From contig DAZV01000030.1 of the NCBI GenBank assembly GCA_002083825.1, positions 1 through 64,000 on the forward strand: DNA of 64,000 nt, given 5' to 3'. A model generated the notes under the pieces. The model had not been told where the DNA came from. It saw only the letters and a program-made list of their open reading frames with translations, and did no database searches. The position numbers and the translations under genes are program-made. Each line of letters opens with the position of its first letter. The stretch's first letter is position 1. The stretch is from Candidatus Sericytochromatia bacterium S15B-MN24 CBMW_12 (GTDB lineage Bacteria; Cyanobacteriota; Sericytochromatia; S15B-MN24; UBA4093). Shown here piece after piece: positions 9,480-63,420 of this stretch.

Positions 9480-9890
9480 CCGCTAGTCATCCCCCCTCGC
9501 TCAGGCGCAGCCTAACTGGGCCCGCAGGCCCAATGGGGGGATTATGGGGGGGGGGTCGCCGGCGTAGCCATGGCCTCTCATCTTCTGCTAATCCGCCCCC
9601 CTCGATGGGGGGCTACGGGGGGTGTTCGCCGGCGAAGCCATGGCGTTCCTTATTATTTCTGAGTCACCATGGGGAGAGATAAGGAACCAGGGATCAGCAA
9701 CCCCCCCCCCCGCCCCCCCCATCGAGGGGGGGGGATCTAGGGGAAGCTCCCCTTCGGGGATGAGATGGAACCAGGGATCAGCAACACCCCCCCGCCCCCC
9801 CATCGAGGGGGGGATTTAGGGGGCGAGCGCCCGCGGCTTGTGGCTATATGATGCGGCTATAGGCTATGAACGGCGAAGCCATGGCGTTCC
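9480..9890. repeat. Repeat-rich intergenic spacer with G/C tracts
   Basis: This 411-base gap holds no credible gene. It contains long C- and G-tracts that form back-to-back hairpins around ATCGA. GGAACCAGGGATCAGCAAC occurs at 9683-9701 and 9767-9785, each followed by a C-tract/G-tract hairpin. A 23-bp motif beginning CGGCGAAGCCATGGCGTTCC occurs at 9630-9652 and 9871-9893; its second copy runs over the ddl stop codon. A third, diverged copy begins near 9556. The first 40 bases are a copy of a repeat also found at 27221-27260. This looks like a cluster of intergenic repeats. Confidence 0.7.
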
Positions 9891-13329: not shown

Positions 13330-13394
13330 GCAATCCCATGGGGTGTCCCAGGTTGCGATCGCCCGGGTAGTCCCCCGCGCGCCTCATTTCCAGC

Positions 13395-13439
13395 AGAAGA
13401 GTCCCGCTCCCCTGGCTACCAGGCGAGCGGGACTCTTCT
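13395..13439 (+). terminator. Hairpin terminator after the Lnt-like gene
   Basis: Perfect 15-bp inverted repeat AGAAGAGTCCCGCTC / GAGCGGGACTCTTCT with a 15-base loop that contains a further CCTGG/CCAGG pair, 65 bases after the stop. Confidence 0.75.
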
Positions 13440-13509
13440 CGCTGGGATCTCCCGTATTCTCGTCGCCGGGTTAGCGATGCGGTCGCCGGGTTAGATGCGA
13501 ATGAAAAAA

Positions 13510-13942: not shown

Positions 13943-14314
13943 TTACGAGATCACTCCTCGGCTGTGGAGAGCTTCGACGAGTGCTTCAAGAAGTTCTTCC
14001 TGGCCATTGGGGCGTTTGATAATCAAGTCACAGCCTTTGGCATTCGGGTCATCCAGTTCGAGTTGGCTGGTCTGCGAAACAAAGCAGATAATGGTTGCCT
14101 CTGCCGAGCTAGGGTGCTCCCGCAGTTTTCGAATCAGGGCAATGTCCCTCGAAGGCAAGAACGCGGCATCAATGTGCTTCGCATTTCCCAGGCAGGTTTC
14201 GAGAGATTCCTGTTGCCTATCAAAATCTACGACTTGATACCCCTGACGGGAGAGCCGGGACTGCAAAAAGGCCCTCTCTTCAGCCCTGTTAGTGAGTACC
14301 AAGATTGTGAGCAT
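13943..14314 (-). CDS. Degenerate receiver-like (CheY-fold) protein
   Basis: The 123-aa protein has the length and strand-helix rhythm of a stand-alone receiver domain: MLTILVLTNRAEERAFLQSRL, a central HIDAAFLPSRDI and a late DLIIKRPNGQEELLEAL. The acidic pair expected after strand 1 is replaced by TNRAEE. The phospho-acceptor position (expected LxD) reads AFLPS, so there is no Asp. The conserved Lys is kept in IIKRP. It is therefore probably a non-phosphorylated pseudo-receiver. SD AGGAAG lies 8 bases upstream. Base composition around it is more AT-rich than its neighbours. Its start region is tandemly duplicated upstream, creating an overlapping upstream ORF. Confidence 0.7.
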   Translation of the reverse strand: MLTILVLTNRAEERAFLQSRLSRQGYQVVDFDRQQESLETCLGNAKHIDAAFLPSRDIALIRKLREHPSSAEATIICFVSQTSQLELDDPNAKGCDLIIKRPNGQEELLEALVEALHSRGVIS

Positions 14315-14375
14315 GAGCTAACTTCCTTTTTGGCGACGTACTGTACTTATTAGTGAGTATCCAGACTGTGAGCAT
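14289..14375 (-). other. Upstream ORF (28 codons) made by the duplication, overlapping the receiver gene start
   Basis: The duplicated copy has its own SD (AGGAAG) and ATG at 14375. Because the unit is 61 bases long, the frame is shifted: it reads MLTVWILTNKYSTSPKRK and stops at 14289, 26 bases inside the real gene. It could act as a coupled leader ORF or simply be a by-product of the duplication. Confidence 0.5.
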
Positions 14376-14409
14376 GAGCTAACTTCCTTTTGGTGACGTA
14401 CTGTACTTA
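14289..14409. repeat. 61-bp tandem duplication spanning a gene start
   Basis: Two near-identical units, 14289-14349 (61 bp) and 14350-14409 (60 bp), both beginning TTAGTGAGTA and ending CTGTACTTA. The first unit contains the SD, start codon and first codons of the receiver-like gene; the second is an upstream copy of the same translation-start segment. Confidence 0.9.
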
Positions 14410-14717
14410 TTGAAGCACATGGTTTGATGCAAAAACAATGCCTCAGTTATATGCCCGCGCTCCGATTTGACTCAACTCACCAAGGTCGGTGACGGATCAA
14501 CGGGGACGCGTCAATGACTTTTGAAGGGGCTGTTCGAGATTTCTCGGGTGATAGCTTCTTTTTGGAACTGAAGCCATGGGGTGGTGGCGCATGCGCCAAA
14601 GTCGCGCCACCGGCGGAATCGAAGCCACGTTGCCGGCAAGGGGCGAGGCAGGTGGCAGGGTGAGGCATGGCGGGGAACCAGGGTTCTCTATCGCATGGCA
14701 CGTAGGCTTAGCAAGCA
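14410..14717. other. Intergenic, no credible gene
   Basis: About 300 bases between the receiver gene and the pyrophosphorylase terminator. The ORFs on the track here (74 and 73 aa, minus) overlap each other in different frames, lack family features and are probably chance. The left end is AT-rich and may hold the promoter of the receiver gene. Confidence 0.5.
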
Positions 14718-20205: not shown

Positions 20206-20261
20206 ACTTGTGGGCGCATTGACGCTGCATGACGGCCATGGTAGAGTTTCTAGCGATAATC

Positions 20262-20363
20262 GCTTATCCAGAGCTGGCTGAGGGACAGGCCCGATGAAGC
20301 CCGGCAACCGACCATTCGGCGCGGTGCCAATTCCTGCGGCGAACCGATCGTCGGCAGATAGGC
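20262..20363 (+). ncRNA. SAM-I (S-box) riboswitch aptamer upstream of metK
   Basis: The S-box consensus is clear. P1 pairs GCTTATC (20262-20268) with GATAGGC (20357-20363). Then come CCAGAG, the GGCTGAGGGACAGGCCC stretch, GATGAAGCCCGGCAACC, and GGTGCCAATTCCTGC. This aptamer binds S-adenosylmethionine. It lies about 100 bases before metK, so it should shut off SAM synthetase when SAM is plentiful. Downstream at 20434-20442 is a run of nine T residues preceded by a weak stem (ACCTT/AAGGGT), a likely transcription-termination switch. Confidence 0.95.
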
Positions 20364-20413
20364 GGAGCAAGACCCTCGCGGCGCTCCGGCTCCAAGCTCA
20401 GGCTCTAAGCACT

Positions 20414-20442
20414 GACCTTGAATGCTAAGGGTGTTTTTTTTT
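20414..20442 (+). terminator. Probable riboswitch expression-platform terminator
   Basis: ACCTT-GAATGCT-AAGGGT followed by GT and nine T residues, between the S-box aptamer and the metK SD. The stem as drawn is weak and would be extended by upstream pairing; the U-tract is unambiguous. Confidence 0.6.
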
Positions 20443-20466
20443 GGTTGTTTCGAAGAGGAGCTGCTC

Positions 20467-21687
<1,221 letters not shown>

Positions 21688-26320: not shown

Positions 26321-26818
26321 ATGCGCTCACCCCTGGGACCTGCGATCGAGCCGATCGGGGATGGTCCGCCGCCGGCTCCCGCTCCGTCCTCCGAGTGGAT
26401 CATGTTGGAGAAGCATGGGCCTTGTTTCGTTTGTCAGCCGGATAACCCGGGTGGCTTGCGGGCAGACCTTTACCGGGTGGGGGATGCGATACGCTGCCGC
26501 TACGTCTATCCCATGGCGCTGGAGGGGCCTCCGGGCCATGCGCATGGGGGGGCGACAGCGGCACTTCTCGACGAGGTCATGGGGGCTGCCGCCTGGAATC
26601 GCCGCCACAACCTGCTGGCGGTGCATCTGGAATACGACCTTCGTCGTCCGATTCCCCTGGGGCAGGAGGTTCTGGTTTCGGGGTGGGTCAGGGCGGATGG
26701 AAACCGCTCGGTGAGAGTCGCCGCCGAAATTCGCCTGGCAGATGGGACGCTGGCCGTTCAATCGACCGGCATCTTCGCGGTGGCTCCGGAGATGTTCCAG
26801 AAGCCGTTCTTCGGCTGA
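26321..26818 (+). CDS. Hotdog-fold thioesterase (PaaI-like)
   Basis: The 165-aa protein has one 4HBT domain. The active-site helix motif is GPPGHAHGGATAALLDEVMGAAAW, the PaaI-type HGG...D/E pattern. Upstream is CFVCQPDNPGGL, a Cys-rich start common in this subgroup, and LEYDLRRPIPLGQEVLVSGWV gives the hotdog strands. It would hydrolyse an acyl-CoA or aryl-CoA. It precedes, on the same strand about 565 bases away, a long-chain acyl-CoA ligase, which fits acyl-CoA turnover, but they have separate promoters. SD AAGGAG lies 5 bases before the ATG. Confidence 0.85.
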   Translation: MRSPLGPAIEPIGDGPPPAPAPSSEWIMLEKHGPCFVCQPDNPGGLRADLYRVGDAIRCRYVYPMALEGPPGHAHGGATAALLDEVMGAAAWNRRHNLLAVHLEYDLRRPIPLGQEVLVSGWVRADGNRSVRVAAEIRLADGTLAVQSTGIFAVAPEMFQKPFFG

Positions 26819-26833
26819 GCGCTCGAAGCACGC

Positions 26834-26880
26834 TTATCTGTCGAATCAGGCGCCTGAATCGCAGGTCACCTGCCAGATAA
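26834..26880 (+). other. Three-way-junction RNA/DNA fold after the thioesterase gene
   Basis: An outer stem TTATCTG/CAGATAA encloses two inner hairpins: the perfect palindrome TCAGGCGCCTGA (26846-26857) and GCAGGT-C-ACCTGC (26861-26873). It begins 15 bases after the stop codon and has no U-tract. It could cap the 3' end of the mRNA or be a protein-binding site. Confidence 0.55.
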
Positions 26881-26924
26881 TCAAGATCAAATGATGATTT
26901 CACATGAACCGCACGCTTGCTTGC

Positions 26925-26952
26925 TTGTCGCTTAACGCTTGGTTGCTAAGAT
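26925..26952 (+). promoter_or_regulatory. Promoter of the candidate structured RNA
   Basis: -35 TTGTCG (26925-26930), 16-base spacer and -10 TAAGAT (26947-26952). Transcription would start near 26959. Confidence 0.5.
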
Positions 26953-26958
26953 GAAAAG

Positions 26959-27201
26959 CGTGGAAGGAAACGGTCCAGGACGGGCCGGGAACCGGAAGCC
27001 CAGTGTTCGACGCGGATCCATCGGCCCTAAAGGCGGTTCGACCGTCGGGGAGTTTACTCGGATCCAAGGGGAATGCTGGTGTGCCCACTCGTCTGCCTTC
27101 CGTCAGGACGAGATGACCGCTAGGGACCCGTGGGTCCTGGTCTAGGCACCGAGCGCAATGCGCACGCCGGGGGCCCCCGTTTCGGGGGTCCCCGTGCTTT
27201 T
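26959..27201 (+). ncRNA. Candidate structured non-coding RNA
   Basis: About 240 bases between a plausible promoter and an intrinsic terminator with no credible reading frame. It is rich in local hairpins: GGGC(CCGG-GAA-CCGG)AAGCCC, CGGT-TCG-ACCG, GAG-TTTA-CTC, TCGTCTG...CAGGACGA, GGACCC-GT-GGGTCC and GCGC-AAT-GCGC. CCAGGAC near the 5' end can pair with GTCCTGG near the 3' end to close the whole fold. Size and end-to-end pairing recall 6S-type RNA, but I could not match a conserved 6S, SRP, tmRNA or riboswitch core, so the family is open. Confidence 0.5.
27168..27201 (+). terminator. Terminator of the candidate RNA
   Basis: Stem CGGGGGCCCCCG / CGGGGGTCCCCG with a 3-base loop (one G-U pair), followed by TGCTTTT. 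Confidence 0.8.
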
Positions 27202-27220
27202 CCATTCCGATCTCATCTCC

Positions 27221-27260
27221 CGCTAACCCGCCCCCCTTGCTCAGGCGTAGCCTAGCTGGG
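27221..27260. repeat. Second copy of the dispersed intergenic repeat
   Basis: CGCTA, a C-tract, then TTGCTCAGGCGTAGCCTAGC and TGGG, matching 9481-9520 with only a few differences (C/T at the eighth base after CAGG, A/G in CTARC). Both copies are intergenic. Confidence 0.7.
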
Positions 27261-27383
27261 CGCACCGGGTCGCGCCACCCTCCGAACGGGTTCCGGCTGG
27301 CCACTTCACGCCACTTGAGGCTATAATGTAAAGCAATGGCCACCCCAGAGAGTTGCTTTGTCAACCCGATTAGAGGAGACCTC

Positions 27384-29174
27384 ATGCTCGAGACGATCAT
27401 CGACATCTACGCCCAGACCATCGAGCGCCATGGCAGTCGCCAGGCGCAATCAGCCAAGATCAACGGCCAATGGAAAACCTGGACGTGGACTCAGGTCGAC
27501 AAGAGCGTCAGGGCCCTTTCCTCGGCGTTGCTCGACCTCGGCGTCCAGCCGGGCGATCGGGTCGCCATCCTCAGCGAAAACCGTCCCGAATGGGTCTGGG
27601 CGGATCTGGCCATCCTCGCCATCGGTGCGGTCAACGTCCCCATCTATCCGACCCTCACTCCGCAGCAGATCGCCTACATGCTCAACGACTGCCAGGCCAA
27701 GGTGGCTTTCGCCTCCACGCCCGCCCAGCTCGCCAAGCTCAAACTAGCCTCCGCCGAGGTTCCTAGCCTCGAGGTCCTGATTCACTTCGATGATATCCAG
27801 AGCGAGGGCTCTCGGGCGCTCGACGAACTGCTCCTGCTCGGCGAAGAGCACCTCGCTTCCCACGAAAACGAGCTGAAAATTCGTCGTGACGCCATCCGTC
27901 CCGAAACCCTCTGCTCCATCATCTACACCTCCGGGACCACGGGAAACCCCAAGGGCGTCATGCTCAGCCACGGCAACTTCGCCTCCAACGCCGTCTCCGT
28001 GACGGAGCTGGTGGGCATCAAGACGGATGACTCCTGCCTTTCCTTCTTGCCTCTCTCCCACGTGCTCGAACGGGTCGCCTACTACGTCTTCCTCTACTGC
28101 GGCGGCAAGATCAGCTACGCCGAGAGCATCGACACGGTGGCCCAGAACCTCACCGAGGTCAGCCCCACCTTCATCGTCTCGGTTCCCAGGCTCTTCGAAA
28201 AGATTCGCGCTCGCGTGATCGACACGATGGCCGATGCCGGCGGTATCAAAAAGGGACTCTTCGACTGGGGCCTGCGGGTCGGCGGTGAGTACCACGGCTT
28301 GAAAGCTCAGGGCCAGGAGCCCGGCCCCATGCTGAGCCTGGAGTACAAGCTCGCTGACAAGCTGGTTTTCTCGAAGGTTCGCGCCCGAACCGGCGGCCGC
28401 CTGCAGTTCTGCGTCTCGGGAGGCGCCCCGCTCTCCAAGGAAGTCGGTTACTTCTTCCAGATCGTCGGTCTCGCCATCCTCGAAGGCTACGGCCTCACCG
28501 AGAGCTCCCCGGTCATCGCCTGCAACCGCCCGAACGCCAACAAGATCGGCACGGTCGGCCAGCCCATCACGAACGTCGAAGTCAAGATCGCCGAAGACGG
28601 CGAGATCCTCGCCCGCGGTCCCAACATCATGCTGGGCTACTTCAACAACCCCGACGCCACCCGGGAAGCCATCGACGCCGACGGCTGGCTCCGCACCGGC
28701 GACATCGGAAAGTTCGACGCCGACGGTTTCCTGGCCATCACCGACCGCAAGAAGGAAATCCTGGTCATGTCCAACGGCAAGAACGTGGCCCCCGCCCCCA
28801 TCGAGAACTCCCTCATCACCAGCCCCTTCATCGCCCAGGCCGTCATGATCGGCGATAACCGCAACTACGTGACCGCGCTCATCGCCCCCAACTTCGACAG
28901 CCTCGCGCGCTGGACCAAGGAGAACGGGATCCAGGGCAATCCCAGCGACTGGATCGCCAGCCCCCAGGTCAAGGAGCTGTTCCGCAAGGAAATCGACAAG
29001 GCGACCGTGAACTTCGCCCGTTTCGAGCAGATCAAGGAATTCGTCCTGCTTCGGGAGGAGTTCAGCCAGGACCGGGACGAACTGACCCCCACCCTCAAGT
29101 ACAAGCGCCGGGTGATCCTCGCGAACTACTCCAAGGAGATCGAAAGCCTCTACGGCACGCCCGTCAAAGCCTGA
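27384..29174 (+). CDS. Long-chain acyl-CoA synthetase (AMP-forming), FadD/FAA-type
   Basis: The 596-aa protein starts at MLETIIDIYAQ (27384) with SD AGAGGAG; the track start is 16 codons upstream. It activates fatty acids to acyl-CoA through an acyl-adenylate. Motifs: IIYTSGTTGNPKGVMLSHGNF (P-loop, about residues 190-210), SFLPLSHVLERV, EGYGLTESSPV (A5), DGWLRTGDIGKFDADGFLAITDRKKEILVMSNGKNVAP (A7-A9, hinge). It fits the FAA1-like long-chain subfamily, which has an extended insert (GGIKKGLFDWGLRVG). A consensus -10, TATAAT, lies at 27322-27327, and a strong terminator follows the stop. Confidence 0.93.
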   Translation: MLETIIDIYAQTIERHGSRQAQSAKINGQWKTWTWTQVDKSVRALSSALLDLGVQPGDRVAILSENRPEWVWADLAILAIGAVNVPIYPTLTPQQIAYMLNDCQAKVAFASTPAQLAKLKLASAEVPSLEVLIHFDDIQSEGSRALDELLLLGEEHLASHENELKIRRDAIRPETLCSIIYTSGTTGNPKGVMLSHGNFASNAVSVTELVGIKTDDSCLSFLPLSHVLERVAYYVFLYCGGKISYAESIDTVAQNLTEVSPTFIVSVPRLFEKIRARVIDTMADAGGIKKGLFDWGLRVGGEYHGLKAQGQEPGPMLSLEYKLADKLVFSKVRARTGGRLQFCVSGGAPLSKEVGYFFQIVGLAILEGYGLTESSPVIACNRPNANKIGTVGQPITNVEVKIAEDGEILARGPNIMLGYFNNPDATREAIDADGWLRTGDIGKFDADGFLAITDRKKEILVMSNGKNVAPAPIENSLITSPFIAQAVMIGDNRNYVTALIAPNFDSLARWTKENGIQGNPSDWIASPQVKELFRKEIDKATVNFARFEQIKEFVLLREEFSQDRDELTPTLKYKRRVILANYSKEIESLYGTPVKA

Positions 29175-31759: not shown

Positions 31760-31770
31760 CCCAGCGCCTG

Positions 31771-31869
31771 AGGCTAAGCTAAATTCAAGTGCGGCTAAGC
31801 TAAATTCAAGTGCGGCTAAGCTAAACTCAAGTGCGGCTAAGCTAAACTCAAGTGCGGCTAAGCTAAACT
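31771..31869. repeat. 21-bp tandem repeat, 4.7 copies
   Basis: Unit GGCTAAGCTAAATTCAAGTG plus C, beginning at 31771, 31792, 31813, 31834 and 31855 (last copy partial). The first two copies have AATTC and the others AACTC, so the array grew from both variants. It lies between a stop codon and a terminator. Confidence 0.95.
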
Positions 31870-31875
31870 CTAGAG

Positions 31876-42130: not shown

Positions 42131-42176
42131 CCAAAAGGATGAAGGCCGCCCCACGGGGCGGCCTTCATCCTTTTGG
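42131..42176 (+). terminator. Very strong terminator of the fliJ-fliK unit
   Basis: A perfect 22-bp inverted repeat beginning CCAAAAGGATGAAGGCC with only two unpaired loop bases, followed on the plus strand by TCCC. The TTTTGG arm supplies the U-rich part. Confidence 0.9.
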
Positions 42177-63320: not shown

Positions 63321-63420
63321 TAATCAACAGCCGCTGGCGCTAGAGCAAAGCTCGTTACGGCGTTCTCTCGCTGTCTGACGAAAAAAGCCGCAGGCGCTAA
63401 TCAACAGCCGCTGGCGCTAG
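63321..63420. repeat. Direct repeats between phospholipase and AIM24 genes
   Basis: A 23-bp sequence beginning TAATCAACAGCCGCTGGCGC occurs at 63321-63343 and 63398-63420. The bases between include AGCAAAGCTCG and CTCGCTGTCTGACGAAA, which also occur, diverged, at 42184-42283. Confidence 0.75.

Follow-up and report, generated by a model that had tools for sequence, protein, structure and literature searches.

Duplicated trans-acting sRNA paralogues are known in bacteria, Qrr and OmrA/OmrB among them, and the sRNAs of the CsrB/RsmZ family carry many GGA motifs in hairpin loops. The locus described here lies in the window, by which we mean the whole stretch of 64,000 nucleotides that was analysed (Candidatus Sericytochromatia bacterium S15B-MN24 CBMW_12, contig DAZV01000030.1, positions 1 to 64,000). 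A first-pass annotation had proposed that positions 26925-27201 hold a new structured RNA with its own promoter and terminator. Our analysis moderately favors a lineage-specific non-coding RNA gene of ~245 nt, present in two copies, with its own promoter and terminator and probably encoding a trans-acting sRNA. The features of the locus are the following.

26321-26818, + strand: upstream gene, 4HBT-family acyl-CoA thioesterase (Pfam PF03061, E=2.3e-12)
26788-27261, + strand: copied block (blastn), 95% identical to G000:C32 (L003:4962-5436, minus strand)
26925-26952, + strand: promoter-like site TTGTCG-16-TAAGAT (sequence and paralogue alignment)
26958-27203, + strand: candidate RNA, ~245 nt, the inferred transcript from ~26958 to the T tract
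26976-27140, + strand: proposed long-range pairing of CCAGGAC (26976-26982) with GTCCTGG (27134-27140), unchanged in copy 2
26998-27088, + strand: long irregular hairpin, predicted in both copies (MFE and constrained folds)
27088-27111, + strand: predicted CTCGTC...GACGAG hairpin (folds and alignment)
27168-27203, + strand: intrinsic terminator hairpin and tail (terminator scan), without any difference between the copies
27224-27261, + strand: left half of a dispersed REP-like palindromic repeat, at the right edge of the copied block
27384-29174, + strand: downstream gene, AMP-binding acyl-CoA ligase (Pfam PF00501, E=6.8e-87)

The placement of the interval between two acyl-CoA genes was borne out, with the thioesterase gene on the 5' side and the acyl-CoA ligase gene on the 3' side. 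A second copy, 97% identical, is found on another contig of the genome (C32:15522-15798), where it precedes rplU (PF00829) and not an acyl-CoA ligase gene. The copied block starts at the 3' end of the thioesterase gene, of which it includes the last 30 bases or so, and reaches into the dispersed REP-like palindromic repeat. The assembly has just one rplU, so C32 is probably part of the same genome; a contaminant contig as the source of copy 2 is also unlikely as the dispersed repeat is common to C32 and many other contigs. Of the two, the window copy is the probable parent, since the thioesterase gene is intact there and C32 has only its tail. The two copies would have arisen by a recent segmental duplication beside the dispersed repeat. 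The repeat pattern GCTCAGGCGNAGCCTANCTGGGC matched 26 times in the genome, against 0 matches for a reversed control pattern. The palindrome itself is ~50 bp long (CCCCCCTCGCTCAGGCGCAGCCTAACTGGGCCCGCAGGCCCAATGGGGGG) and occurs in the window at 27224-27261 and 9489-9545 as well as at L015-L039, and its outer flanks are often common among its genomic matches. Other repeats were seen in the window: short tandem or palindromic ones at 31769-31870, 14289-14411 and 9671-9822, inverted ones near 13390-13445 and 42131-42176, and at 63340-63419 81 bases, 90% identical to L003:37-115 on C32, that may be a further dispersed repeat.

Comparison of the copies showed that, within the copied block, they differ least between promoter and terminator, with 5 changes in 243 bases versus 19 in 231 in the flanks (Fisher p=0.0027). 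Set against the 170 bases upstream alone, the promoter region included, the contrast was 5/243 versus 10/170 (p=0.059), so the lower divergence of the putative RNA unit is suggestive but not strong.

The unit is bounded by promoter-like and terminator-like sequences in both copies. The sigma70-like promoter of the first-pass annotation is present as TTGTCG-16-TAAGAT; however, it matches the consensus at only 8/12 positions and was missed by our promoter scan, which has a limit of 9/12. The corresponding site in copy 2, TTGCCA-16-TATGAT, is nearer consensus (10/12). In the 36-base promoter region (26922-26957) the copies differ at three positions, each of them inside a hexamer. The strong intrinsic terminator that had been proposed was confirmed as a GC-rich hairpin (27168-27194) followed by TGCTTTT, unchanged in copy 2. 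The terminator scan found 1 such site where 0.8 would be expected by chance.

The Infernal/Rfam check agreed with the earlier failure to match the RNA to a known core. A cmscan of 26820-27340 at E<=10 gave no relevant match for the candidate RNA, only one chance hit on the other strand, and copy 2 gave nothing at E<=10 but a chance snoRNA hit (E=1). The annotation had also suggested a trans-acting or housekeeping (6S-like) RNA. An independent, possibly trans-acting gene fits best, but the housekeeping or 6S-like part is rejected because of the blank scan and because the genome has its 6S RNA (RF00013, C54:234715-234898, 93.9 bits), RNase P RNA (C42), tmRNA (C21) and SRP RNA (C54) elsewhere, all four above their cut-offs. 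No tRNA or tmRNA was found in the window by ARAGORN, and blastn gave no match pointing to a phage or plasmid origin. The window does hold a SAM riboswitch (RF00162, 82 bits) at 20261-20364, just 5' of an ORF (20422-21687) that reads as methionine adenosyltransferase, metK, which is an ordinary arrangement.

Folding gave a less favorable picture. Folded together with its terminator, the 251-nt sequence had z = -1.78 against shuffles (range -1.2 to -1.8 with the terminator included), but removal of the terminator brought the value to +0.3 in copy 1 and 0.0 in copy 2. The many stable hairpins claimed for the interval thus fold, in the core, no better than shuffled sequence, and the energy of the long irregular hairpin is not better than that of shuffles either (z=-0.5). 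Both words of the long-range CCAGGAC/GTCCTGG pairing are indeed present, and the pairing belongs to a near-optimal fold of copy 2; however, it competes with local hairpins, and a 7-bp pairing at this distance was seen in 19% of shuffles. Among the five changes between the RNA copies, three fall at predicted unpaired sites and the other two are A-to-G changes in stems, one of them A27108 in the CTCGTC...GACGAG hairpin, which is G in copy 2 with a G-U pair possible. A-to-G accounts for three of the five changes; it turns an A-U pair into G-U and never breaks it. The two stem changes prove nothing as a G-U pair always remains possible, and their reading as compensatory was rejected; a random set of five substitutions of matching types disturbed the fold to the same degree. 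The description as a new structured RNA is unproven, since the fold does not exceed chance expectation and the genomes searched gave no relatives with which covariation could be tested.

The two copies were the only matches in every genome set searched, each including the genome itself: 59 genomes by blastn, and the 18 genomes of the class and 292 of the phylum by a covariance model that, being built from two near-identical copies, reaches fairly close relatives only and could miss a diverged homologue. A DNA pattern search in viral contigs found no homologue. The evidence for conservation therefore rests on one recent duplicate. A thioesterase scan of genome contigs returned only a distant Spirochaetales match. 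In a genome of the same family (G001), another sequence stands 3' of the thioesterase gene, and its similarity to the interval is not significant (p=0.42). The orthologous thioesterase gene there is followed (L006 2060-2205) by a different element, rich in GC and carrying a strong hairpin and a CATAAT box, without an Rfam match above the gathering score. Photosystem reaction-centre genes (PF00124) occur in other members of Cyanobacteriota and in 0 of the 18 genomes of the host's class, which points to a non-photosynthetic class of that phylum, consistent with Sericytochromatia.

The main rival to an sRNA gene is that the interval is intergenic DNA without a function, which recombination at the dispersed repeat has copied; the terminator would then serve the thioesterase transcript and the remainder would be spacer, rich in GC and folding no differently from other sequence of that kind. 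We regard this as possible, though on the doubtful side. The core fold at z about 0, the chance level of the long-range pairing, the failure to find a homologue in any genome searched and the end of the copied block within the repeat all agree with it, and the reading of the unit as an sRNA gene is weakened by the fold energy, the 8/12 promoter, the terminator count, the missing homologues and the p of 0.06 against the upstream flank. Against a functionless spacer stand the divergence minimum, which coincides precisely with the stretch from promoter to terminator, and the promoter-like pair, which is retained and stands nearer consensus in copy 2. Together with the unchanged terminator, these same observations support an sRNA gene. 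The interval could instead be a cis-acting leader or attenuator of the acyl-CoA ligase gene, since it shares that gene's strand, precedes it by ~180 bases and, in the manner of a riboswitch expression platform, has a terminator at its end. This is improbable: a riboswitch or leader would precede one kind of gene, but here the downstream genes are an acyl-CoA ligase gene and the unrelated rplU, both copies end in a terminator of their own, the ligase gene has a separate promoter-like site past the terminator (27298-27327, 10/12 in the promoter scan), and no riboswitch family was matched. Since each copy is terminated and precedes a different gene, an RNA from this unit would most likely act in trans.

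Nor is the interval free of ORFs, as had been stated, and a short coding gene has to be weighed. A 64-aa ATG ORF (26951-27145, + strand), a 16-aa ORF (27073-27123) and, on the minus strand, a 168-aa ORF overlap the unit and are open in both copies, and the 16-aa ORF has one change only, a synonymous one. But all five changes between the RNA copies are nonsynonymous in the 64-aa ORF, whose ATG overlaps the -10 box, those in the minus-strand ORF are mostly nonsynonymous, and neither of these two ORFs has a Pfam match. A coding role for the 64-aa and 168-aa ORFs is not supported by this comparison, and we consider a short coding gene very improbable; the changes in the 64-aa ORF and the lack of a protein family match favor a non-coding RNA. 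Least credible of all is a protein-sequestering sRNA of the CsrB/RsmZ kind, whose repeated GGA motifs would bind a CsrA-like protein. Copy 1 has 11 GGA where shuffles have a mean of 7.0 (p=0.025), but copy 2 is down two (9 remain) and several GGA lie in stems, not loops.

If the unit is an sRNA gene, as we favor, it would be transcribed from its own sigma70-type promoter and stop at the intrinsic terminator, and each copy may act in trans, whether through base pairing or by binding a protein, rather than as the leader of its neighbor; transcription, trans function and a target are what we infer from the arrangement. A brief literature search found no paper on small RNAs of this bacterial class. 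More tentatively still, and with more doubt than belief, the two paralogues with their diverged promoters could form a new regulatory RNA class of one genus of non-photosynthetic Cyanobacteriota and be expressed differently. If transcribed, the unit would give a basal cyanobacterial lineage that lacks photosynthesis an unassigned sRNA gene, and it would be a clear example of sRNA gene duplication at a dispersed repeat, in which the transcript was retained and the promoter altered.

Among known systems, the candidate resembles 6S RNA (RF00013) in being stand-alone, of similar size and with a proposed pairing of its ends, but it gave no match at E<=10 and the 6S gene of this genome is on C54. 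With CsrB/RsmZ it shares repeated GGA motifs; these are, however, not consistently in loops, two are gone in copy 2, and there is no Rfam match. The likeness to Qrr or OmrA/OmrB, which concerns general features, is that of near-identical small RNA genes at separate sites in one genome, each with its own promoter and terminator, here putative ones.
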